Source: Prochlorococcus sp. AG-355-P18
GTDB taxonomy: Bacteria; Cyanobacteriota; Cyanobacteriia; PCC-6307; Cyanobiaceae
NCBI GenBank assembly: GCA_003280515.1
Contig: QCER01000004.1
Location: forward strand, 1 to 64,000
Reading direction: 5' to 3'
Length of the DNA: 64,000 nt
This document shows, one piece after another, positions 12,548 to 58,048 of this stretch. The notes under the pieces were generated by a model. That model had not been told where the DNA came from. It was given only the letters and a program-made list of their open reading frames with translations, and ran no database searches. The position numbers were made by a program, and so were the translations under genes. Numbering within the stretch: the stretch's first letter is position 1; each line of letters starts with the position of its first letter.

Positions 12548-12608
12548 CTTTCTTTTAACAGACGCTTTTACAAAGAGTCTATAATCTGGCAAAATATCTA
12601 ATCGCGTA

Positions 12609-12627
12609 GGTCTGAATATATCAGACC
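12609..12627 (+). promoter_or_regulatory. Perfect hairpin between atpB and atpE
   Basis: GGTCTGA and TCAGACC form a 7-bp stem with an ATATA loop in the 158-base atpB-atpE spacer. There is no following T run, so it is not an intrinsic terminator. A processing or stabilising element is plausible, because the c subunit is needed in many copies per enzyme. Confidence 0.45.
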
Positions 12628-12687
12628 CATTCTTAAAACAAAGGATGTCCAAGCGTGTATGACAACAAAGATTATCACAAGTATTAA

Positions 12688-47769: not shown

Positions 47770-47848
47770 TGTGCTAACTCCCTTTTAGAAAATTTATAAA
47801 TACTTATAAAAATTTATTTACTTTTAAAAAACAGCTATTTTTTGATTT

Positions 47849-47995
47849 TTAATTGCAACAAACCAGGCAATCTTCTTGATTTGGATAATCTATACATTCT
47901 TTATTTAAAATTTCTTCTAAAAAATCTACTTTTTTAACATAATCAAGATCTTTTAATTTTTTGTTTGGAACCGTGAACTGAGTTTGTAGTTTCAT
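47849..47995 (-). CDS. 48-residue small protein with CP12-tail-like Cys motif
   Basis: TAGGAGAA upstream of ATG is a good ribosome-binding site. The C-terminus ECIDYPNQEDCLVCCN has C-x3-P-x4-C spacing, as in the GAPDH-binding tail of CP12, and aligns position by position with the tail of the protein at 48199-48351. The N-terminal part is charged and helical. Confidence 0.55.
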   Translation of the reverse strand: MKLQTQFTVPNKKLKDLDYVKKVDFLEEILNKECIDYPNQEDCLVCCN

Positions 47996-48010
47996 TTTCT
48001 ATTCTCCTAA

Positions 48011-48112
48011 TTAATACTGTTTTTTGAATCCATTCCAAGTCTGAGAAAACCTTAATCCCAGATAAGAAATTAAAATTGTCCAAAATAAAATTTCTATACC
48101 TAAATTAGTCAT
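48011..48112 (-). CDS. 33-residue single-helix membrane peptide
   Basis: AAAGGAGGC 7 bases before the ATG is one of the strongest ribosome-binding sites in the region. One helix (IEILFWTILISYLGLRF) is followed by a basic tail. Function unknown. Confidence 0.55.
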   Translation of the reverse strand: MTNLGIEILFWTILISYLGLRFSQTWNGFKKQY

Positions 48113-48198
48113 TTGCTTTGCCTCCTTTCTTTCTGATTATTCTTTAGTACGGGTATTATGTAAAAATCAAGCGTAAGAATACCTAAAAGTTAAAGTTT

Positions 48199-48351
48199 TT
48201 AATCACAAAAAATCTTGCAATGGTTGTTACTCGGATGTTCTGTACATTCATTATTCCAATAAGCTTCAATTTTTTTGAGCTTATTATCAAATGAAAGGTC
48301 TTTTTTATCCAAATTAATTTCTTGGATAGTAAATGTGTCATTAAGTGCCAT
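48199..48351 (-). CDS. 50-residue small protein with CP12-tail-like Cys motif
   Basis: The frame is open further upstream, but the internal ATG at 48351, preceded by AGGGGT, is the likely start. The C-terminus ECTEHPSNNHCKIFCD has E-C-x3-P-x4-C-x3-C, the same spacing as the protein at 47849-47995. A charged helix precedes it (NKLKKIEAYWNN). The motif resembles the CP12 C-terminal loop with one extra Cys. Confidence 0.55.
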   Translation of the reverse strand: MALNDTFTIQEINLDKKDLSFDNKLKKIEAYWNNECTEHPSNNHCKIFCD

Positions 48352-48589
48352 AAGACTTACCCCTTTACTACAACTATGTTCTAATTCATTTGAATAGTAA
48401 ATTTCAAGTTTTATTTGTGCGGTTAGAGGAACAAAATTGTACGGATTAAGGATCAAAAAAAAATCTCAAATTTTGAATAATTGCAAGGAAAATATTTTCA
48501 AAAAAGATATTCCAAATTTAAAAAAATTTGTATAAATTTTGCTTAGAAATTATATTTTCTTAATACGTTCTTATGTCTGCAAGTAGCTA

Positions 48590-48715
48590 TTATTCATCTA
48601 ACCTATCTGCATATTCTCTTAAAATCTCAGCCATCTTCTGAGGTGGAATTTCTTGTTGATATTCTCTACATAAATCAAAAAATTTATCTAAGAAATCTTT
48701 CATTGAAGATGACAT
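48590..48715 (-). CDS. 41-residue helical small protein
   Basis: The sequence is strongly helical and charged (KDFLDKFFDLCREYQQE, then PPQKMAEILREYADRLDE). A second ATG lies at residue 5. It lacks membrane segments. Function unknown; the protein-like composition supports it. Confidence 0.5.
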   Translation of the reverse strand: MSSSMKDFLDKFFDLCREYQQEIPPQKMAEILREYADRLDE

Positions 48716-48812
48716 AAAAATTAGTATTTCATTTTAAAAGTAAAGTATGCAAACCTAACAAGCAATAAAAGACTCACAACCCCATAAGTAATAGCTATGC
48801 CTTACCTATACG

Positions 48813-48953
48813 TTATTTATTTATAAAGATATAAGCAGAATATAAATATACTAAGAAAACTCCAATAGCAATGGAACTTCCATAAATAAGTAAGTTCCAA
48901 AATCTATATAATTTAGGTTTTTTAAATTCTTTTTCTTCTTTTTTAGTAATCAT
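48813..48953 (-). CDS. 46-residue membrane peptide
   Basis: A Lys/Glu-rich N-terminus and one hydrophobic helix (LLIYGSSIAIGVFLVYLYSAYIF). Its ATG overlaps the stop of the upstream 38-residue gene (ATGA), which supports both as a coupled pair. Confidence 0.5.
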   Translation of the reverse strand: MITKKEEKEFKKPKLYRFWNLLIYGSSIAIGVFLVYLYSAYIFINK

Positions 48954-49066
48954 TTATTTTCTTTTTCTTTTCTGGCAGCATTACCTTTTGCTCTTAATAC
49001 CAAAGTTATCGTAAGGGCAGCGCTCAATATCACAGCATCAATTAATAGGTGCGGGGAAATATTCAT
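48950..49066 (-). CDS. 38-residue membrane peptide coupled to the next gene
   Basis: A hydrophobic helix (LLIDAVILSAALTITLVL) is followed by a basic tail RAKGNAARKEKENK. The stop TGA overlaps the start of the 46-residue membrane peptide by 4 bases, so the two are probably made together and may interact. Confidence 0.5.
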   Translation of the reverse strand: MNISPHLLIDAVILSAALTITLVLRAKGNAARKEKENK

Positions 49067-49215
49067 CAGCTGAAAAGAGAAATAAGAAGAGTCATTATCT
49101 TTTCAGCAATAAATCTATTAAACATTAAAATAGGGGTTTATCCCTCCAAGTTTAGATCGACTCTCAATCACTGACTATTTTAGCTTTTTAGTTTTCTTAA
49201 AAAACAGTATTTTGT

Positions 49216-49371
49216 TTAGCCAGAGCAAGAGAAGGCACCTGCAAGAATATTTTTAAAAATTGGTGCTTGACCCAATGCATACAAAAAGAAAGTTGATGAT
49301 GCGAGAGTAATAGCTATTTTGGAAAGTCTATTAAGTTTTAAATTTGATACTTTTGAAAATGTAGAGTTCAT
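49216..49371 (-). CDS. 51-residue small membrane-like protein
   Basis: A basic N-terminus (KVSNLKLNRLSK) precedes a moderately hydrophobic helix and ends ILAGAFSCSG. Function unknown. A short GC hairpin at 49132-49145 lies downstream and may end its transcript. Confidence 0.45.
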   Translation of the reverse strand: MNSTFSKVSNLKLNRLSKIAITLASSTFFLYALGQAPIFKNILAGAFSCSG

Positions 49372-49447
49372 TTGTTCTTTAATTTAATGACTTTATATTA
49401 GCTGCAAAAATTAAATATTCAGCATTAATATTTACCAACGAATAATT

Positions 49448-49651
49448 TTATTGCTCCTTTTTCTCAGCTTGCATTTTTAGTAGTTCAAATTCTTTTTTAG
49501 AAACTATTCTGATTTTGTATGATGGATATCTTTTCTTCCACCATTTATTGATTGAAATAGCTACTCCTTCTAAATTTTGGGTACAAATATTGACCCATAG
49601 AATCTTAGTTTCAATTTCTTTATAGAATTCCCAACTTGTAGGTGAAGCCAT
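49448..49651 (-). CDS. 67-residue basic hypothetical protein
   Basis: The ATG at 49651 is preferred over an in-frame TTG four codons upstream. The product begins MASPTSWEFYKEIE and is Lys-rich toward the C-terminus (KKEFELLKMQAEKKEQ). It has a compact alpha/beta look with INKWWKKRYPSYKIRIV. Not recognised. Confidence 0.5.
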   Translation of the reverse strand: MASPTSWEFYKEIETKILWVNICTQNLEGVAISINKWWKKRYPSYKIRIVSKKEFELLKMQAEKKEQ

Positions 49652-49853
49652 TAAAAATCGCAAATGAAAAAAATTTATAATTGTTGAAAAGATTCTATAA
49701 ATTTAGGTATATGGTACAAAAGATAAAACTTTTGGTTTTTAATAAGAGGATTTAGTTGGTGATATAGAGTTTTCATTAAGTGGTAATAAAAAACTTTAAA
49801 CAAAAGATTTACATCACTTTCGGCGTTTAGGAAAGTATTACTTTAATTTTATA

Positions 49854-49922
49854 AAGAGTTTCAATTAAAAAATATCTCCGCAAAGAAGGGGCCAAAAATT
49901 GACCCCTCTTGGTGAAACTCTT
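49854..49922. ncRNA. Nested perfect hairpin, candidate structured RNA
   Basis: An outer 10-bp perfect stem, AAGAGTTTCA (49854-49863) with TGAAACTCTT (49913-49922), encloses a GC-rich inner hairpin: AAGA, GGGG and CAA (49883-49895) pair with TTG, CCCC and TCTT (49899-49910). It lies in a 345-base gene-free stretch. Orientation is unclear because neither side has a T run. Confidence 0.45.
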
Positions 49923-49996
49923 CCAAAGAAACACCATTAAAATCTTACTCTGATAGTTGCAAATTTAAACAAATTAACAAAATAAAGATTAACAAT

Positions 49997-50206
49997 TTAT
50001 GCGGCCTTTTTAAAAGGGTTTATATTCCTTAAAAAGTTATTACTTTTGCGGGTACTCATTTTTCTATATCTTTGATTTATATCCAAAATATATTTCCTAG
50101 CTTTCTTATCACTTTCAATTTTCTTTCTTTGAAGACGTAAAGCCTTTAAATCTTCTATTGACATTAGGCTATCATCTTCGTTGAAATTCATATGATCAAA
50201 TTGCAT
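49997..50206 (-). CDS. 69-residue basic hypothetical protein
   Basis: Highly charged and Arg/Lys-rich (LKALRLQRKKIESDKKARKY; YRKMSTRKSNNFLRN), without hydrophobic segments. It could bind nucleic acid or ribosomes, but no domain is recognised. Later in-frame ATGs at residues 6 and 15 are alternative starts. Confidence 0.5.
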   Translation of the reverse strand: MQFDHMNFNEDDSLMSIEDLKALRLQRKKIESDKKARKYILDINQRYRKMSTRKSNNFLRNINPFKKAA

Positions 50207-50349
50207 CAGTTTAAGAAATTAAGTTTCTCCTTTAAGTGAAAGATTAACAACCTTATCTTTATTTGCAATAGAGATAATTAACCAATTTAACTCAAATTAG
50301 TTTCAGTCTTCAGATAGCTATAAATTTAAGTATTAAAAACTTTCTAAAA

Positions 50350-50469
50350 TCAAGAAAAACTTTTTATTGAATTAGATGGAATTTCTACAGTTATAAATGA
50401 TTCTCCATAATGAGATGCGGCTGATCTTATTAGTAATAAGTAAAAGAAATTAACTAAAGCTTTCTCCAC
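50350..50469 (-). CDS. 39-residue small protein (MEKxxxNFxYxxL family, copy 2)
   Basis: Reading from GTG gives MEKALVNFFYLLLIRSAASH and then YGESFITVEIP. It aligns without gaps to the 35-residue frame at 39279-39386. Two independent frames sharing MEK, NF, SA and YG[DE]S positions are unlikely by chance. Confidence 0.5.
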   Translation of the reverse strand: MEKALVNFFYLLLIRSAASHYGESFITVEIPSNSIKSFS

Positions 50470-50831
50470 TAGGGTTAAGTAACTAATTTAAATAACCTCA
50501 TATTTTTTGTTACAGTAATATACAAAATAAATTTATCAAGCAATCAATATATTTATCTTTTAAAAAACAGTTGCATATTATTAATTTAAAAATTTGCACT
50601 ATCAGGCTTTAAGAAGCGGTCTAAATCCTCTTGGAGTATTGGACTTTAGCCCGATCTATTTTTTGCAAGAGAAAAATAGCACTGCAAGGTAACTAGATGA
50701 CTAAATTATTATATTTGATTCTGATTAAGACTTTATTGGTTAATTAATTAAGATTATCTGAGTGTATGTTGGCATTATTTATTGTATAATTTTGCTACAA
50801 AACTATAGTTATATCAATAGACTCAGTATTT
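50470..50831. other. Intergenic stretch with two adjacent hairpins
   Basis: CTAAATCC (50621-50628) pairs with GGACTTTAG (50641-50649) with a single bulged C. CTATTTTT (50656-50663) pairs perfectly with AAAAATAG (50672-50679) around an 8-base loop. The block is richer in GC than its surroundings. I see no protein-like frame. A short non-coding RNA is possible. Confidence 0.35.
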
Positions 50832-50990
50832 TTGCTCATTGATATATTAATTCTTGGAATAATATTATTATTGATGCCTAAAGAAGGTTTAATTTTGAAA
50901 AAAATAACTAAATTTTTTAAACTACTGAAGAGAAGAATTGATATTCTCAATGCAGAGGCTGAATTAAAATTTATATTAGAAAATGAATAA
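50832..50990 (+). CDS. 52-residue membrane-anchored small protein
   Basis: Starting from TTG at 50832 there is a hydrophobic helix (LIDILILGIILLLMP) followed by a basic helical tail (KKITKFFKLLKRRIDILN). An ATG at 50874-50876 is an alternative start that would remove the helix. Its stop TAA shares one base with the ATG of the next gene (TAATG), which supports translation of both. Confidence 0.4.
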   Translation: MLIDILILGIILLLMPKEGLILKKITKFFKLLKRRIDILNAEAELKFILENE

Positions 50991-51136
50991 TGGGATTCCC
51001 ACATTGTCCTATTTGTGTGGTTCTAGCATTTGTTTCATTTTTGATAGGAGTTACTCGTAGTTATATGTTCTATATTCTTTTAAGGGAGTTTGTTAGAGCA
51101 GAATCTAATTTTAAATTGAAGTTTAGTTCCTATTAA
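50990..51136 (+). CDS. 48-residue small membrane protein with CPIC motif
   Basis: It starts inside the stop codon of the preceding frame (TAATG). The product has CPIC at residues 6-9, a hydrophobic helix (VVLAFVSFLIGV) and a basic tail. The stop is 4 bases before the -35 box of the following promoter. Confidence 0.45.
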   Translation: MGFPHCPICVVLAFVSFLIGVTRSYMFYILLREFVRAESNFKLKFSSY

Positions 51137-51139
51137 TTG

Positions 51140-51168
51140 TTGACATCTAAGTATAAATACTTTATAAA
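51140..51168 (+). promoter_or_regulatory. Consensus sigma70 promoter
   Basis: TTGACA (51140-51145), a 17-base spacer and TATAAA (51163-51168). This is the best promoter match I found in the window. The predicted start of transcription, about 7 bases after the -10 box, falls at 51175. Confidence 0.7.
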
Positions 51169-51174
51169 TGAATT

Positions 51175-51188
51175 GTAGTAAATACTAC
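51175..51188 (+). promoter_or_regulatory. Perfect NtcA box over the transcription start
   Basis: GTAGTAAATACTAC fits GTA-N8-TAC exactly and is nearly palindromic. Its location from about +1 to +14 predicts repression by NtcA, as for the glutamine-synthetase inactivating-factor genes, rather than activation, which uses sites near -41. Confidence 0.65.
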
Positions 51189-51190
51189 TA

Positions 51191-51260
51191 AATCGTCCGA
51201 TCTACCATCTGATAGACCGCAGTACGACTCAAGCCATAGGACGGGGACTTGAGCAAGTTC
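51191..51260 (+). ncRNA. Candidate glutamine riboswitch (Downstream-peptide type)
   Basis: CGTCC (51194-51198) pairs with GGACG (51239-51243) as P1, enclosing a small TCTA/TAGA hairpin (51201-51216) and GACCGCAGTACG, close to the conserved GACGGAAGTAGG segment as I remember it. CTCAAG (51228-51233), inside P1, pairs with CTTGAG (51248-51253) outside it, giving the pseudoknot expected of this class. It leads directly into an AGGAG ribosome-binding site (51261-51265). The assignment rests on remembered consensus and needs a covariance search. Confidence 0.55.
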
Positions 51261-51272
51261 AGGAGCTGCATC

Positions 51273-51374
51273 ATGGTAAACATGTATTTCAATGGAAAGT
51301 CATTCGTATATTGTAGAAAACAAGAAGATAAGTTAATAAAGCTTACTTATAGAGGATCTATTTACTTGAAATAA
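51273..51374 (+). CDS. 33-residue DUF4278-like peptide under riboswitch control
   Basis: Begins MVNMYFNGKSFVY and ends with IKLTYRGSIYLK. The LTYRG-x2-Y tail is the hallmark of DUF4278 proteins, which include the PII-interacting regulator PirA and the short peptides that follow the Downstream-peptide RNA. An AGGAG site is 7 bases upstream of the ATG; a second ATG is three codons in. I infer a role in reporting nitrogen excess. Confidence 0.65.
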   Translation: MVNMYFNGKSFVYCRKQEDKLIKLTYRGSIYLK

Positions 51375-51567
51375 GTTTTCTAATTTCTTTTTTTTAACAA
51401 CTTTAGACATTTATTGAAGCTTTGGGATTAAGTATTTATTAATACCTTATAAGAAAAACTTATTATGAAGATATTTTTTGCCTATTTAAAAATTCATATA
51501 TTCGTATATTTAGTAACTAGAAATTAATTGTAAAGTAACTAATTTGATATTAGATTTCTAAAGGGTT
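51375..51567. other. A/T-rich spacer
   Basis: I see no convincing gene here. A frame of 20 codons (ATG near 51464) is too short and unsupported. Confidence 0.4.
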
Positions 51568-51624
51568 ATGCAACCTATTTCCGAAGAACTTTACAAAAAA
51601 ATAGTTGAGAGTTCTAAAAAATGA
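51568..51624 (+). CDS. Possible 18-residue peptide
   Basis: MQPISEELYKKIVESSKK is a well-formed amphipathic helix preceded by AAGGG. Its stop overlaps the start of the next short frame (ATGA). Very short, so a tentative call. Confidence 0.25.
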   Translation: MQPISEELYKKIVESSKK

Positions 51625-51695
51625 GTAAGTTATTGATTGCTTTATTAGCTTTAGATATAGGCGTTAGTCTGTCTAAAGTTTTTATTTTTACCTGA
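51621..51695 (+). CDS. Possible 24-residue hydrophobic peptide
   Basis: A single hydrophobic helix (LLIALLALDIGVSLSKVFIF) starting in the ATGA overlap with the preceding 18-residue frame. Tentative. Confidence 0.25.
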   Translation: MSKLLIALLALDIGVSLSKVFIFT

Positions 51696-51847
51696 AAATC
51701 AAATTACTTAATAATAGAAGCAATTGTTTTCTAAAAAGAAATAGTAATGAGATATTTTTTGATATATTTATTTTAAAAAATAAAAAATTAAACCAATAAA
51801 AGAACTACCTAAAAGAAGTAGCACCATTAAAAAAGATATTAACTTTG

Positions 51848-52231
51848 CTAATCCCATAAAGATAAATCAGAATTTCCTGTTGATCTTTGTATCCAGTGAA
51901 TTTTACAGACATTATTTACTTTTTTAAAATTGACGTAACTGTTGGTAAGTCATCATTAGCGGTCCCTTTATAAGTAAATTTTGAACCTAGTGTAAAAATG
52001 CACATTACTATATTTTCGCTTAGAAATTCGAATCGGTGTTTTAGTTATTTCTGCCTTTTCTTGAACTATATCACCAGTCATCATTTGTGCGAACCCTTTT
52101 GCATCTATAGGATTACCACTTGGTCTTATGAATAAAAAATCTGGAGTCGCATTGTCAACAAAAAATGAAGCCATTTTTTTTGGATTGGCAAACTCATTTA
52201 ATAATGAAATTATTGTTTCTTTATCATTTAT
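51848..52231 (-). pseudogene. Decayed NTF2/SnoaL-like protein gene
   Basis: Conceptual translation on the minus strand gives INDKETIISLLNEFANPKK then MASFFVDNATPDFLFIRPSG up to EITK, then after a frameshift FLSENIVMCIFTLGSKF up to SILKK, then after a second shift in an A6 run KVNNVCKIHWIQRSTG to LSLWD-stop. The codon before IND is TTT, so the start codon is also lost. The three pieces join into one NTF2-like domain of about 127 residues. The longest intact piece would be only 68 residues. Confidence 0.75.
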
Positions 52232-52377
52232 AAAAAAAGGGGTTTACACTTCTAGTTTAGATCTATTATTTAAAATGTACAAATCAAAATAGTATTTAAA
52301 ATGTACAAATCAAAATGGAATAATCCTAAAAATAATTCGTTAGGATGATCGAAATATTTGTATTCTTAATGTAAATC

Positions 52378-52500
52378 ATGATCAATTCATTAAACAAATT
52401 ATTGCCCGTTGGCAAAAAGGTCAAAAAATACTTGCCTTTCTTTATTGGATTTAAATTACTTACATTTACTGGCTTTCTTACTTATTTAATGAATCGCTAA
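52378..52500 (+). CDS. 40-residue small membrane-like protein
   Basis: Begins MINSLNKLLPVGKKVKKYLP and continues into a hydrophobic helix (FFIGFKLLTFTGFLTYL). Function unknown. It lies 42 bases before the GTG of the next gene. Confidence 0.45.
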   Translation: MINSLNKLLPVGKKVKKYLPFFIGFKLLTFTGFLTYLMNR

Positions 52501-52542
52501 TTGATATAACCTTAACAATAAATTTTCTTAAATTAAAATCTA

Positions 52543-52737
52543 GTGAATAAAGAAAAACGAACTAAAGGATTTAAGTCTATGTCAAGTATGCAAAGACAAG
52601 AACTGATATTAAAGAAGATGAAAGAGAGAGGCATAGAGGTGGGAAGCGGAGTTCCGAATAAAAAATACGATAGCAAAGAGGTTTATGAATTAATTCATAT
52701 TGCAAATTGCTTCCCAGAATTAAGAGATAAAAAATAA
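52543..52737 (+). CDS. 64-residue basic hypothetical protein
   Basis: It starts with GTG. The product is charged and helical, with a Met/Gln/Arg-rich N-terminus (MSSMQRQELILKKMKERGIEV) and KEVYELIHIANCFPEL near the end. Not recognised. Confidence 0.5.
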   Translation: MNKEKRTKGFKSMSSMQRQELILKKMKERGIEVGSGVPNKKYDSKEVYELIHIANCFPELRDKK

Positions 52738-52769
52738 AAAAAATATTTAGGTTTCTTTAATTGAGTAAT

Positions 52770-53150
52770 TTATTTTGGTTCCCTTATTGCAGTAATAATT
52801 AATCCACCTATCAATGCGAGATTCATAAATACTGCTCTTTGATGAAAAGGAAATACATGAAAAATTATTGTTGTTGGAATAATAAATAGTAATAAAAAGA
52901 CTGAACCGATTCTTTGATTTTCCCCAAATATAAAAAATCCAGAACCCAAGATAAGACATATAATTGCTCCCACTAGAAAAATAGATGAAATTGGTTCAGG
53001 AATACCTTTTGAAGAAATATATTCAACTGTTCTCTCAAAATCATTTATTTTGCCTGGTATTGACGAGATAAATATTGCTGAAATTGATAATCTTGAAAAA
53101 AAATCTAAAAAAGATTTGATACTTTTATTTTTCAAAAAAGAATTTTTCAT
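52770..53150 (-). CDS. DoxX-family membrane protein
   Basis: 126 residues with four hydrophobic helices. The pattern RLSISAIFISSIPGKINDFERT followed by GIPEPISSIFLVGAIICLILGSGFF and FHQRAVFMNLALIGGLI is typical of small DoxX/DoxD-like proteins. The specific role in cyanobacteria is unknown. Confidence 0.75.
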   Translation of the reverse strand: MKNSFLKNKSIKSFLDFFSRLSISAIFISSIPGKINDFERTVEYISSKGIPEPISSIFLVGAIICLILGSGFFIFGENQRIGSVFLLLFIIPTTIIFHVFPFHQRAVFMNLALIGGLIITAIREPK

Positions 53151-53348
53151 AATCTTATTATAAGAAAAAAATTTTATGCGTTTGATAAATACTTTATTAG
53201 TCCGAAATAATTTTAAATTTTTCTCAAAGAGGTTTTGCTCAATTAATAGAAATCTTTTTAATTAATGTGAATCTTTTTAAGGTAATTAATAGTAATTTAT
53301 GAATTGTCTTTTTATATTTATGAAATGATAAATTTAATTAAAATAAAA

Positions 53349-53825
53349 ATGTTTAAAAAATTCATTTTAACTTCTTTTTTACTTTTTAGTTCTCTAATAA
53401 CTATATATCCTTCAAAAAAAGAAAATACTAATTTTTTCGATTATTGTTATTCCCTGGAAAAAATAATTTCTAGAAATAAATTAGAAAAAAGTAAGAATCT
53501 ATCGAAGAATTTTAAGTCTTTAGCAAATGATATTACTCTATTTGGGACTAACAAAACTAAAGGTAATTTTGCTAATAAGATAATTAATCAATATAAAAAT
53601 TCCAAAAAGTCATTTATTATAACTGTTTTTCCAAATCAAATTTATTGTTTAGCAGGATATTGGATTGAGGAGATAATTCCAGGAAAATTTGAATCCATTT
53701 TCTATGAGAAAACCAATCAAAAAATAAATGAATATAAGAATACTAAAAAAGAAGTAGATAAATTTATTAAAGAAATTAATTTAGAATATAAATCTATAAA
53801 AAAAGAAATTAATGATTTCTTTTAG
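53349..53825 (+). CDS. Secreted lysine-rich protein of unknown function
   Basis: The ATG at 53349 is preferred over the longer frame from 53304, since it places the signal peptide KKFILTSFLLFSSLITIYPS at the N-terminus. The mature part has three Cys (in YCYSLEK and IYCLAGYW) and ends in a Lys/Glu coiled coil. Base composition is even more A-rich than the surroundings. It converges with the gene at 53830. Confidence 0.55.
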   Translation: MFKKFILTSFLLFSSLITIYPSKKENTNFFDYCYSLEKIISRNKLEKSKNLSKNFKSLANDITLFGTNKTKGNFANKIINQYKNSKKSFIITVFPNQIYCLAGYWIEEIIPGKFESIFYEKTNQKINEYKNTKKEVDKFIKEINLEYKSIKKEINDFF

Positions 53826-53829
53826 AAAA

Positions 53830-54279
53830 TCAGAACCTTTTTTCTAATAAAATTGATTTATTTATTATGGTCGATTCATTTTTTTTAGATTGCGAAATAA
53901 AAAATAGCAGTAATGCCAAAATAATTACAAATCCAAAAATTGATAAACTATAAATTATTTTATTTTTGATATTAAAGTTAAGTTTGTTTTTGGTAATTTT
54001 TCCAAAAAACAGAAATTTTTTATTTGATAATGAATCATATTTTTCAGAATTTTTTTCAAAATAATAATTATTAAATAGTTCTTCCCTATTTTCATTAATA
54101 TCTTTCTGTAAATTATTTTCAGAGGCCCCAACTTTGTAATTCGATTGCTCATAAAAAAATTCATGTATGTTTGAAATATTTGTTATTTTTTTATTTTTAA
54201 TATTTGATTTAGTTTTTATTAAATCATTATCAAACCATTCGTCATAAACTATAAAGTTTGGTTTAGCAAAATAAGACAA
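53830..54279 (-). CDS. C-terminally anchored membrane protein of unknown function
   Basis: 149 residues. A long Asn/Lys-rich polar domain is followed by one helix (IIYSLSIFGFVIILALLLFFI) near 110-130 and a short tail. Low-complexity Asn/Lys content makes homology hard to judge. Confidence 0.5.
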   Translation of the reverse strand: MSYFAKPNFIVYDEWFDNDLIKTKSNIKNKKITNISNIHEFFYEQSNYKVGASENNLQKDINENREELFNNYYFEKNSEKYDSLSNKKFLFFGKITKNKLNFNIKNKIIYSLSIFGFVIILALLLFFISQSKKNESTIINKSILLEKRF

Positions 54280-54474
54280 TACCCTATCTCAAAAAAAAGT
54301 ACATTAAAAAGATAAATCAAAGAAAAAAAAGAAAGTTATTTTTGTTGGTAAATTTCATAAATCATGTTTATAAATCATCATTAATTGTCAACTTTTCATT
54401 TAAAGTAATTTCTTAAATTTCTAAACTTTTAATTATTTGATTGTTTTTCGCGAGTTAATTTGCTGGTAAATTAA

Positions 54475-54630
54475 TTATTTTGACTTTCTAGTTCCACCGT
54501 AGGCATAATTTTTATGAGTAGAAACTTGATTCCAACATTCTTTACAACAAAAAATCCAGTCTTTATGAATTGTGGATCTTATTCTGTAATGAATTTTATC
54601 CGGCTCATGACATAAGTCGCATTTTCTCAT
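54475..54630 (-). CDS. 51-residue putative zinc-binding protein
   Basis: Cys4-x2-Cys7-His8 and Cys28-Cys29-x2-Cys32 could hold one zinc ion in a treble-clef-like or HNH-like ribbon: MRKCDLCHEPDKIHYR, then DWIFCCKECW. The tail is basic (HKNYAYGGTRKSK). Its composition strongly favours a real protein. Confidence 0.6.
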   Translation of the reverse strand: MRKCDLCHEPDKIHYRIRSTIHKDWIFCCKECWNQVSTHKNYAYGGTRKSK

Positions 54631-54710
54631 TAATTTATTAATTTTAAATTTATTTTATATATTCAAAAGTTTGATTTAAAAAGATTCACGAAAAAAATTT
54701 TATCGTGTCA

Positions 54711-54803
54711 TTATAAAAAAGCATTCCACATATCCTGAAGCAAAGCATTGGTATTGTTGACTGCAAATATTTTTACTTGATTAATAACATTTCTAATTTC
54801 CAT
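54711..54803 (-). CDS. Possible 30-residue peptide
   Basis: MEIRNVINQVKIFAVNNTNA then LLQDMWNAFL; amphipathic, no Cys. No strong ribosome-binding site. The rest of the spacer from 54631 to 54969 is A/T-rich with nothing else visible. Confidence 0.25.
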   Translation of the reverse strand: MEIRNVINQVKIFAVNNTNALLQDMWNAFL

Positions 54804-54969
54804 TATTTTATATCTGAGCTGTAATAAATTTTTAATGGAATTTATGAAGCATTTATTTAGCTTTTATTAAATATTAAACTCTTTATTATACATCTCAATT
54901 AGTACTTTAAAAAGAAACTCACGAATATTAATTGATTAATTTTAGTATGGATTTAATCATTTTAATTCT

Positions 54970-55113
54970 ATGAACATTTACTTATTTTGGATATTATTTC
55001 TCGCTCTATGGGCAACTGTACCTTTAATGATAATTAAAGGTAGAGTAGATGAAGTCCCTAAAATTCAGACTTCACCAAAAGTTAAAGCAAAGAAAAAAGG
55101 TTGGTTTAATTAA
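54970..55113 (+). CDS. 47-residue membrane peptide
   Basis: One hydrophobic helix at the N-terminus (IYLFWILFLALWATVPLMII) with a basic C-terminal tail ending KAKKKGWFN. It lies 85 bases before the DUF1543 gene. Function unknown. Confidence 0.5.
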   Translation: MNIYLFWILFLALWATVPLMIIKGRVDEVPKIQTSPKVKAKKKGWFN

Positions 55114-55198
55114 CAGAATCTCTGACTTAATAAATAATAATCTGTAAGATAAATATTGATAATTTAAATTAAAGTTTAAGTAAATCTTATTAATAAAC

Positions 55199-55789
55199 GT
55201 GAAAAAATTAGAAAATAATTTTCTTTATTTGGTTGTTCTTGGGGGTAGAGCAGAAAAAGCTAATATTGAACTACATGATGTTAGATGGGTTGTTGGATCT
55301 AGAATTGAGGATACTTATGATACTTTAAGAAATGATTGGTTCGGATCTTCAAAAGGTTTGCATATCGATAGCTATAAAAAAATACAATATGTAGATGGTT
55401 ATAAGATTAATTTAATAAATTTCGAAAAGGATGAACTAGAAAAAAGGCAATTAGTAAACAACAATAATCCAAAAAAATATTTATGGTTTGTCAATATTGG
55501 AGGCTATTATTCAACTTCTATGCAGGAACAACATGAGTTTGGATTAGTTATAGCTTCAAGTAAATTAGAGGCAAAAAATATAGCTAAATCTAAATGGCTG
55601 ATTGGGAGTAAAAAAAAGCATATAGATGATATTGCTTCTTTAGAAATGATAATTAGTTGCGGTGATTGTGAACTTATAAAAAGAATAGGTGATTGGGAAA
55701 TAGAATTAACTCTTGAAAATAATGTTAAAGTTATTGAAGAAAAAAATTATCCTGATTGGTATGGATATCAAAAAATAAATGAGAAATAA
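55199..55789 (+). CDS. DUF1543-family tandem-domain protein
   Basis: 196 residues from a GTG start. The two halves each resemble DUF1543: LYLVVLGGRAEKANIELHDVRWV at the N-terminus and LWFVNIGGYYSTSMQEQHEFGLV near residue 94. The repeat is visible by eye, including the VGSRIEDTYD and IGSKKKHIDD segments after each. Function unknown. A short hairpin (AAAGAT/ATCTTT) follows the stop. Confidence 0.75.
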   Translation: MKKLENNFLYLVVLGGRAEKANIELHDVRWVVGSRIEDTYDTLRNDWFGSSKGLHIDSYKKIQYVDGYKINLINFEKDELEKRQLVNNNNPKKYLWFVNIGGYYSTSMQEQHEFGLVIASSKLEAKNIAKSKWLIGSKKKHIDDIASLEMIISCGDCELIKRIGDWEIELTLENNVKVIEEKNYPDWYGYQKINEK

Positions 55790-57599: not shown

Positions 57600-58048
57600 T
57601 CAGTCTATTTCCTATTTAGCACATAAATAAATTTTAGACATTAGTAAAGGTCTTTTTGGTTATATTCAATCGGTGAAAAAATATTATTTACTGTTTAGTT
57701 TATTTATTTGCTTTTAAATTGAGAGAGCCTGCAAGTATCCCACTGGCAAGCTCATGACGACCTAGTTAATTCAGATTTTTTGATTTAACCAGCCAAGCAC
57801 TTCCTAAATGCTATAAATATTCTACTAAGTAAAATTACTTACTGTGGGTATAAATGCTTATTTTTAATGATTAATCTGCGAAGTTGATAATAAAAATTGA
57901 TTTGATTAAAAAATGCGCCCTTCTAATTTGTTGAACAGATATGTCACATATTGACCAATAACATAAATAGTTAGAGAAAATTACATATGAGCATGGTTTA
58001 CATAAGTTAATATTTGTGTTACTTTAGTTAACAATTAACAACTTTCTA
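57600..58048. other. 449-base region upstream of hli with a GC-richer block
   Basis: Bases 57721-57765 are markedly richer in GC than the flanks and contain GCC/GGC and GAG/CTC complementary segments, suggesting a fold. The remainder is A/T-rich and should contain the hli promoter; a TTGACC at about 57952 is one candidate -35 box. No protein-like frame is seen. Confidence 0.3.

Follow-up and report, generated by a model that had tools for sequence, protein, structure and literature searches.

Here, we describe a 235-base unit (positions 51140-51374, plus strand) that constitutes, with a probability of roughly 85% in our estimate, a compact nitrogen-excess gene in which NtcA repression and a glutamine ON riboswitch together gate the synthesis of a 33-residue peptide. 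All positions refer to the window, i.e., the whole stretch of 64 kb of DNA that was analysed. The order and the coordinates of the elements were verified base by base in the sequence, and the bounds of the conserved unit match those observed in a preliminary description of this DNA almost exactly, so that this observation is confirmed. Promoter, box, aptamer and their spacing, as well as covariation, coding selection and distribution, were observed directly. A chance or artefactual origin is ruled out by the aptamer match, the box statistics, the covariation and the coding selection.

According to the proposed mechanism, RNA polymerase would initiate at G51175. Under nitrogen starvation, NtcA together with 2-oxoglutarate would bind GTA-N8-TAC at +1 to +14 and block initiation. 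When nitrogen is sufficient, NtcA would leave, and a short mRNA of about 240 nt, judged by analogy with yfr6, would be produced. L-glutamine in the pseudoknot groove of the type 2 leader would then turn on the translation of the basic peptide. The NtcA and the glutamine inputs point the same way (AND logic), and thus the peptide would be made only when nitrogen is ample. The dual-input nitrogen-excess switch that had been suggested for this unit is supported as an anatomy, comprising a promoter, a box over the start projected from published yfr6 data, a glutamine riboswitch and a small conserved peptide.

Promoter, spacer palindrome and NtcA-type box

The unit begins with the -35 hexamer TTGACA (51140-51145, plus strand), which is found in 106 of 110 anchored distinct leaders of the subfamily. 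It is followed by a spacer of 17 bases (between 51145 and 51163) and the -10 hexamer TATAAA (51163-51168; 93/110 leaders). These and all further leader counts exclude two of 112 leaders without a regular-expression anchor, both of which carry box and palindrome as judged by eye. The elements had been described as a consensus promoter; hexamers and spacing hold, and the full consensus does not, as 11 of 12 bases match. A generic promoter scan does not list this promoter because it demands T at the last -10 base.

The spacer contains the palindromic 12-mer AGTATAAATACT (51150-51161), a candidate operator that 94 of the 110 anchored leaders carry without any change. Both TTGACA and AGTATAAATACT are characteristic of this subfamily, whereas 62 paralog DUF4278 units, many of them close relatives of one another, have neither (0/62 for TTGACA and 0/62 for the pattern AGTAT-N0..3-ATACT). 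Orthologs of other genera, e.g., L391 and L395, retain the palindrome. In orthologs of this type it is moved by 2 bp and overlaps the -10 hexamer by one base, with the spacer still at 17 bp, and L393 and L398 carry variants that differ by one base. Conservation in spite of a shift within a spacer of constant length speaks for an element in its own right, which may serve a dimeric regulator as operator. With so little variation in the 12-mer core, covariation offers no proof of a function as a dyad; the two bases that immediately flank the 12-mer are complementary (A-T or G-C) in some copies and mismatched in others. We also considered a wider regulon for the palindrome and rejected it, since the 14-mer RAGTATAAATACTY has two copies in its own genome, too few to argue from: the one in this unit and one at G000:C4:79393, roughly 80 bases ahead of an ORF judged DoxX-like by eye. 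The reversed 14-mer pattern has no occurrence in this genome.

Downstream of the -10 hexamer lies a perfect NtcA-type box GTA-N8-TAC (GTAGTAAATACTAC, 51175-51188). Its relation to the transcription start was derived from yfr6. Genome G015, which we take to be that of MED4, holds a match to the Downstream-peptide (DP) model RF01704 at 627894-627956 on the minus strand. This match lies within the coordinates of MED4 yfr6, complement(627729..627972), whose mapped first base is a G (Axmann 2005, PMC1242208). Position 627972 is located 16 bases 5' of the RF01704 match and 19 bases 5' of CGTTC, and it is the G of the GTA box (L381). The start of yfr6 transcription has also been placed some 20 nt upstream of the DP motif (PMC2864571). 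Applied to the window, the same projection predicts G51175, the first base of the box and seven bases after the -10 hexamer, as the start, with the box covering +1 to +14 and the ATG at +99 (nucleotide 97 in yfr6). An NtcA box over the start had been proposed, with the start expected within 51170-51180, and the start projected from the paralog falls inside this range.

Promoters activated by NtcA have their box near -41.5; a box over +1 is in a repressor position. Both marks of a putative NtcA-repressed promoter, namely GTA-N8-TAC over the projected start and the presence of ntcA in this genome (364.6 bits; cut-off 244.95), were found, and repression by NtcA at this locus is probable by analogy with yfr6, gifB and other DP units. 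Two more matches to the NtcA model stay below the cut-off (G000:C17:1985-2269 and G000:C1:61691-61864; 32.3 and 29 bits). They are possible CRP-type regulators, and one of them is located about 0.8 kb from the riboswitch unit of locus L004.

The box is a regular companion of the aptamer. Our unit finder, which ignored the box, yielded 128 units (115 distinct) from 133 loci, with none from L229 and L274-L277. In 112 of the 115 distinct units, a perfect GTA-N8-TAC starts 17-21 nt upstream of the base that opens the pseudoknot; this sample is biased, as the 133 loci are mostly top-scoring matches. Units without a proper box are the L004 unit and two subfamily members with damaged boxes (L223, L266). 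After mononucleotide shuffling, a box starting within an 8-position stretch is seen in approximately 0.25% of the upstream sequences. When all 14 RF01704 matches (E <= 0.01) of three complete genomes are considered, the box lies at -18 to -20 in nine and at -28 in one, and it is missing from four; for units that are not of the L004 type, this amounts to 9 out of 11. Within the subfamily, 104 of 110 anchored distinct leaders carry it.

Conservation of the box could also reflect a hairpin that stabilises the 5' end of the RNA, instead of or besides an NtcA operator. If transcription starts at the first box base, the arms could form a 5-bp hairpin at this end. Box positions 5/10 are complementary in 101 of 125 units, the 125 boxes having C-G in 63 cases, T-A in 38, T-G in 19, C-A in four and A-G in one, and in the 19 T-G cases the DNA dyad is broken while RNA pairing (G-U) is still possible. 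The NtcA consensus, however, is defined by the GTA/TAC arms alone, and T-G at positions 5/10 is therefore compatible with NtcA. Moreover, the invariant letters of the box are those of the NtcA consensus, ntcA is present in the genome, and yfr6, which has the same box, is reported to be reduced on nitrogen depletion (PMC1242208, where a figure legend describes the Yfr6 signal as inconstant, nitrogen depletion included). We therefore regard the hairpin as improbable and retain the NtcA operator as the probable function of the box.

The Glutamine-II riboswitch leader

The leader contains a Glutamine-II (type 2 or Downstream-peptide) aptamer of 63 bases (51191-51253, plus strand) that matches RF01704 with 58.4 bits and an E-value of 1.5e-11, computed over the whole 64-kb window. 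The score lies above the gathering score of 33, which makes the leader a member of this Rfam family. Both the glnA and the Downstream-peptide models had been named for an Infernal search, and the significant covariance match is to the latter, so that the leader belongs to type 2 instead of the glnA (type 1) class. Between 50900 and 51600, the sole other Rfam match is far under its gathering score.

All parts of the published structure (Weinberg 2010, PMC2864571; Huang 2019, PMC6698751) are present, including the full pseudoknot. The pseudoknot CGTCC/GGACG (51194-51198 with 51239-51243) is paired in 55 out of 55 aptamers. The P1 hairpin (51201-51216) pairs 51201-51204 with 51213-51216, and double-sided changes affect all four of these pairs; an additional outer P1 pair fails to form in 33 of the 55 aptamers, among them that of the window. 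The linking strand CGCAGT (51218-51223) provides C51220, which forms an invariant C-G pair with G51244. P2 (51228-51253; 51228-51235 with 51245-51246 and 51248-51253) encloses the pseudoknot loop and has double-sided changes at four pairs. Pairing amounts to 100% for the pseudoknot and the long-range C-G pair (C33-G57), 98% of cells for P2 and 88% for P1.

The alignment used for covariation comprises 55 of the 70 distinct aptamers listed, with the L004 kind left out. The structure is paired in 96.0% of cells vs 84.6% in shuffles, double-sided changes number 149 vs 45.9, a count inflated by the relatedness of the sequences, and the covariation score is 0.386 vs 0.182. None of 500 shuffles attains any of these three values. 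The number of pairs with a double change and the number of further pair types show no excess over shuffles (100 and 108 of 500). If the partners are slid against each other, pairing falls to 23-50%, and to 48-50% for a slide by one base. At columns 7/53, a pseudoknot pair, U-A occurs in 34 and C-G in 21 of 55 rows. Here C-G marks our subfamily, which distinguishes it from RF01704 members with U-A, and U-A to C-G is a compensatory change inside the pseudoknot. The fold with P1, an internal hairpin and a pseudoknot, as sketched in the preliminary description, is thereby borne out by the RF01704 structure, and compensatory changes across the 55 aptamers are found in P1, P2 and the pseudoknot alike.

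DP aptamers bind L-glutamine, and type 2 acts as an ON switch, likely at the level of translation (Huang 2019, PMC6698751); the same is described for a Prochlorococcus type 2 element (PMC6698751, PMC6316151). By analogy, this copy would bind glutamine and respond in the ON direction. There is no terminator-like site on the plus strand of 50900-51700, and thus translation control is the simplest reading. The Shine-Dalgarno (SD) sequence AGGAG (51261-51265, exact in 95/110 leaders) is followed by ATG at 51273, seven bases 3' of it, and the stop codon ends at 51374. As a hypothesis, GCAGU (51219-51223) in the linking strand could pair with GCUGC (51265-51269) beside the SD, and the ligand would break this pairing.

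Support for this candidate platform is mixed. Over 73 units, the complementarity of linking strand and SD region has a mean of -6.15 kcal/mol vs -4.24 for shuffled SD regions (best of 100 shuffles -4.74), and 45 paralog units taken alone give -5.06 vs -3.8 kcal/mol (best shuffle -4.54). Swapped SD partners pair equally well (-6.35 for the 73 units and -4.96 for the 45 paralogs). Both pairing segments are kept in 101 of 110 leaders; in orthologs of other genera, the pairing is lost (L391, L392, L394, L396) or weaker (L397, L400). Single-strand folding reveals no switch: the mean SD accessibility of the window unit is 0.73, regardless of whether the pseudoknot strands are blocked, and over 126 units it is 0.48 vs 0.47 when folding with and without pseudoknot blocking is compared.

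The 33-residue peptide and its relatives

The ORF MVNMYFNGKSFVYCRKQEDKLIKLTYRGSIYLK (51273-51374, plus strand) is under purifying selection, with a pN/pS of 0.163 that is descriptive only, as the genome pairs are related and not independent. Among 85 distinct ORF sequences, 82 encode 33 residues and the others 21 (frameshifted), 34 and 36. In the 82 ORFs of 33 residues, variable sites by codon position number 11, 16 and 31 of 32, and there is almost no variation at residues 1-14 (MVNMYFNGKSFVYC). With seven K/R vs two D/E, the short peptide is basic. AGGAG and a 33-residue peptide are both present as anticipated, but the peptide does not end in LTYRG; its actual C-terminus is ...LTYRGSIYLK.

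These data bear on the possibility that the transcript is mainly a regulatory RNA or part of an antisense or toxin-like pair, with the ORF being secondary. Such a role is conceivable as an antisense RNA, Yfr14, lies opposite Yfr6, is induced in phage infection and was suggested to form a toxin-antitoxin pair with it (Steglich, PMC2518516). It is hard to reconcile with an ORF that is strongly constrained while its third positions vary, with a spacing of aptamer, SD and ORF that is preserved across genera, and with type 2 aptamers being reported as ON switches (PMC6698751). We consider this explanation quite improbable and a translated peptide the better account. That the unit is a degenerate relic, i.e., a DP copy undergoing decay within a variable region and functionless in this strain, is extremely improbable and largely refuted by the ORF comparison: the peptide is divergent and has no Pfam match, two homologous copies in distant genomes (L220 and L400) are frameshifted, both after residue 10, and three weak protein matches are interrupted by a stop codon, but the unit is intact in the window and 84 of the 85 distinct homologous ORFs have 33, 34 or 36 residues, with the near-invariant N-terminus in 82.

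The peptide had been called DUF4278-like, which is right for the YRG motif and wrong for family membership, as the gathering score is not reached. Compared with DUF4278 (PF14105), the window peptide gives no match up to an E-value of 10, and just one of 14 homologs gives a match (E = 0.065). Five paralog peptides match the model with 32.6-42.9 bits at a cut-off of 25.3, those of the same length as our peptide (e.g., MTLIYRGQKYVQNKEAAKKQHNELTYRGKAYTS) with 32.6-33.1 bits. An hhalign comparison with a profile of 13 paralogs yields a probability of 80.9 and an E-value of 1.3e-5 over 10 columns only (KLTYRGSIYL), and the profiles of the subfamily and the DUF4278 peptides have the motif YRG-x-x-Y in common. 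The DUF4278 paralogs compared here have two or three YR(G/R) repeats, whereas in our peptide FNGKSF replaces the first one, being located by eye at the N-terminal position of the first YRGQKY repeat. From these sequence similarities, we take the peptide to have diverged within this peptide family; the curated test places it outside DUF4278.

A search of the PDB with the profile of the DUF4278 paralogs gave a single match, a glycosyl transferase with an E-value of 0.6, which we take as chance. A review considers it possible that picocyanobacterial DUF4278 proteins are inhibitors of glutamine synthetase that resemble inactivating factors (PMC6316151). Judged by its regulation, our peptide would belong to the nitrogen-excess response. 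By analogy with IF17, which binds glutamine synthetase, it might conceivably damp nitrogen assimilation through binding, e.g., glutamine synthetase or PII.

Relatives of these peptides also occur in phages. The pattern of a first viral scan, GCCATNGNACGGGGAC, was too loose; among the matches listed, only L046, L056, L065 and L089 showed the remaining motif. When viral contigs were scanned with our subfamily, none of 71 pattern matches was confirmed as a relative, and a scan with the DUF4278 paralogs gave nine loci. Further searches of phages, plasmids and solved structures returned nothing useful. We examined 11 viral (IMG/VR) loci, namely eight of the nine from the paralog scan (L408-L415) and L046, L056 and L089. 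All 11 carry RF01704. The GTA-N8-TAC box is absent from nine (L046, L089, L409-L415) and present in L056 and L408; the nine loci without a box form three groups of similar sequence and thus represent about three lineages. A scan for hallmark genes covered six of the 11 loci (L409, L413, L415, L046, L056 and L408). Both L409 and L415 encode thymidylate synthase and, like L413, a terminase large subunit; L046 encodes a phage-type DNA polymerase, L056 has genes for portal and head proteins, and L408 an integrase with a phage-type RNA polymerase. The last locus, with a tRNA beside it and a host unit as its neighbour, looks like the border of a prophage. When three phage peptides were compared with DUF4278, two scored above the cut-off (34.7 and 27.5 bits) and that of L046 scored below it (17.3 bits). 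Phage contigs carry units of riboswitch and DUF4278-like micro-protein. Glutamine riboswitches have already been published for T4-like cyanophages (PMC9964418, PMC9602691) and for an OM43 phage (PMC9004378).

Known systems, distribution and genomic context

The type 2 glutamine riboswitch, the NtcA motif in the PMM1846 promoter and the yfr6 transcript are already known, and our unit is a yfr6 paralog of a known class. It resembles yfr6 of MED4 and SS120 (PMC1242208, PMC2518516) in its short transcript (244 nt in yfr6), its type 2 aptamer, its 33-residue ORF and an NtcA-type box whose first G is the start, mapped in yfr6 and projected here. In contrast to our unit, the yfr6 peptide begins with MTLIYRGQKY instead of MVNMYFNGKSFVYC, and in G015 the two occupy different loci, at 627.9 kb (yfr6) and 350.4 kb. 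Identity with yfr6 was considered for the 33-residue ORF and rejected because G015 holds both as separate matches.

Type 2 switches are described as multi-copy elements tied to DUF4278 genes, and PMM1846 as having an NtcA motif (PMC6316151). Units of the PMM1846 type share NtcA motif, glutamine riboswitch and small protein with ours, but encode a DUF4278 protein, a model that our peptide does not reach. Of the two parallels drawn in the preliminary description, gifB is, together with yfr6, the right one. As in our unit by analogy, gifB (IF17) of Synechocystis combines NtcA repression with a glutamine riboswitch over a small protein; it differs in having a type 1 aptamer and in encoding a proven glutamine synthetase inhibitor (PMC6316151), whereas the role of our peptide is assigned by analogy. 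The second, pirA, also encodes a small nitrogen-excess protein under NtcA control, but the parallel fails, since PirA is reported to be absent from marine picocyanobacteria, and the pertinent sections of that paper do not mention a riboswitch (PMC8092223). Our literature search, which covered Klahn 2018 (PMC6212724) via citing papers and other sources in part, returned no earlier account of the FNGKSFVYC subfamily, phage DUF4278 peptides or the palindrome in the spacer, nor of the nearly constant distance between box and aptamer that many units share.

Taken jointly, these features allow a tentative and somewhat doubtful reading as a nitrogen switch with three inputs, i.e., NtcA, glutamine and a candidate dimeric regulator on AGTATAAATACT. 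It would control a new subfamily of micro-proteins (MVNMYFNGKSFVYC...LTYRGS.Y) that would have branched off from the DUF4278 peptides and acquired a partner of its own. Relatives of the paralogs would also have moved into phages, where most lineages dropped the NtcA box and kept the glutamine gate and the peptide. Marine picocyanobacteria lost many protein regulators, and the restraint of their glutamine synthetase has been described as unclear (PMC6316151). DP units combine a nitrogen-limitation signal (NtcA) with a product signal (glutamine), at a nearly constant distance from each other, ahead of tiny peptides. The subfamily offers a clean test object of 235 bases, complete and with a promoter element and a peptide foreign to the paralogs examined. 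The partner of the peptide would reveal what such peptides do in a very abundant phototroph and why some phages carry relatives.

Within the genus, 188 of 266 genomes carry the unit as DNA (E <= 1e-8) and 106 of 151 the peptide (E <= 0.001), absences being soft as many genomes are incomplete. In a sample of the family, 19 of 201 genomes and three of 59 genera have the peptide (E <= 0.01). Stretches encoding relatives of it number 183, and the best 80 of these 183 are all from Prochlorococcus or uncultured Synechococcaceae. At least one RF01704 match (E <= 1e-4) is present in 148 of 151 genus genomes, with one to seven per genome, and matches at this threshold occur in 126 of 201 family genomes and in none of 14 control genomes. 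The own assembly of 1.45 Mb has four matches over the cut-off: the unit described here, two units with DUF4278 peptides and one with an ORF lacking a DUF4278 match.

This fourth unit resembles the wild-type RNA of the crystal structure, whose sequence is given in PMC6698751. It is of a second kind of DP unit, seen in L004 (1094-1151, G000:C17), L387, L385 and L390, which lacks a box in the customary position, that of L385 lying at -28, and is followed by related ORFs, MNELSQIREK.. and MNNLVLIREK...

An accessory region had been assumed for the unit. This holds for its position and for its frequently shuffled flanks, and less so for the unit itself, which is common, as seen above. The copy of G015 (350446-350508, apart from the yfr6 match at 627894) lies among the ncRNAs of genomic island 1, which have been placed at 339-358 kb in MED4 (Steglich 2008, PMC2518516). 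The flanks are partly syntenic in relatives (e.g., L266, L267, L269, L270). In three of nine compared loci (L265, L268, L273), similarity is limited to the unit, from 51133, 51140 or 51139 through 51374. A mobile cassette with exact ends was considered and is not claimed, since selection on the unit with drifting flanks would look alike. ARAGORN detected no tRNA in the nine compared loci or the window.

Within the window, the stretch from 47800 to 55200 is dominated by short ORFs and is partly shuffled among relatives. Three proteins of the window were tested, and DoxX (52770-53150) and DUF1543 (55199-55789) lie in or at the edge of this stretch. Besides the aptamer, which is one of three Rfam family matches in the window, positions 12567-12657 represent an ATPC RNA motif (95.2 bits) and positions 57726-57813 the sRNA Yfr20 (82.8 bits).
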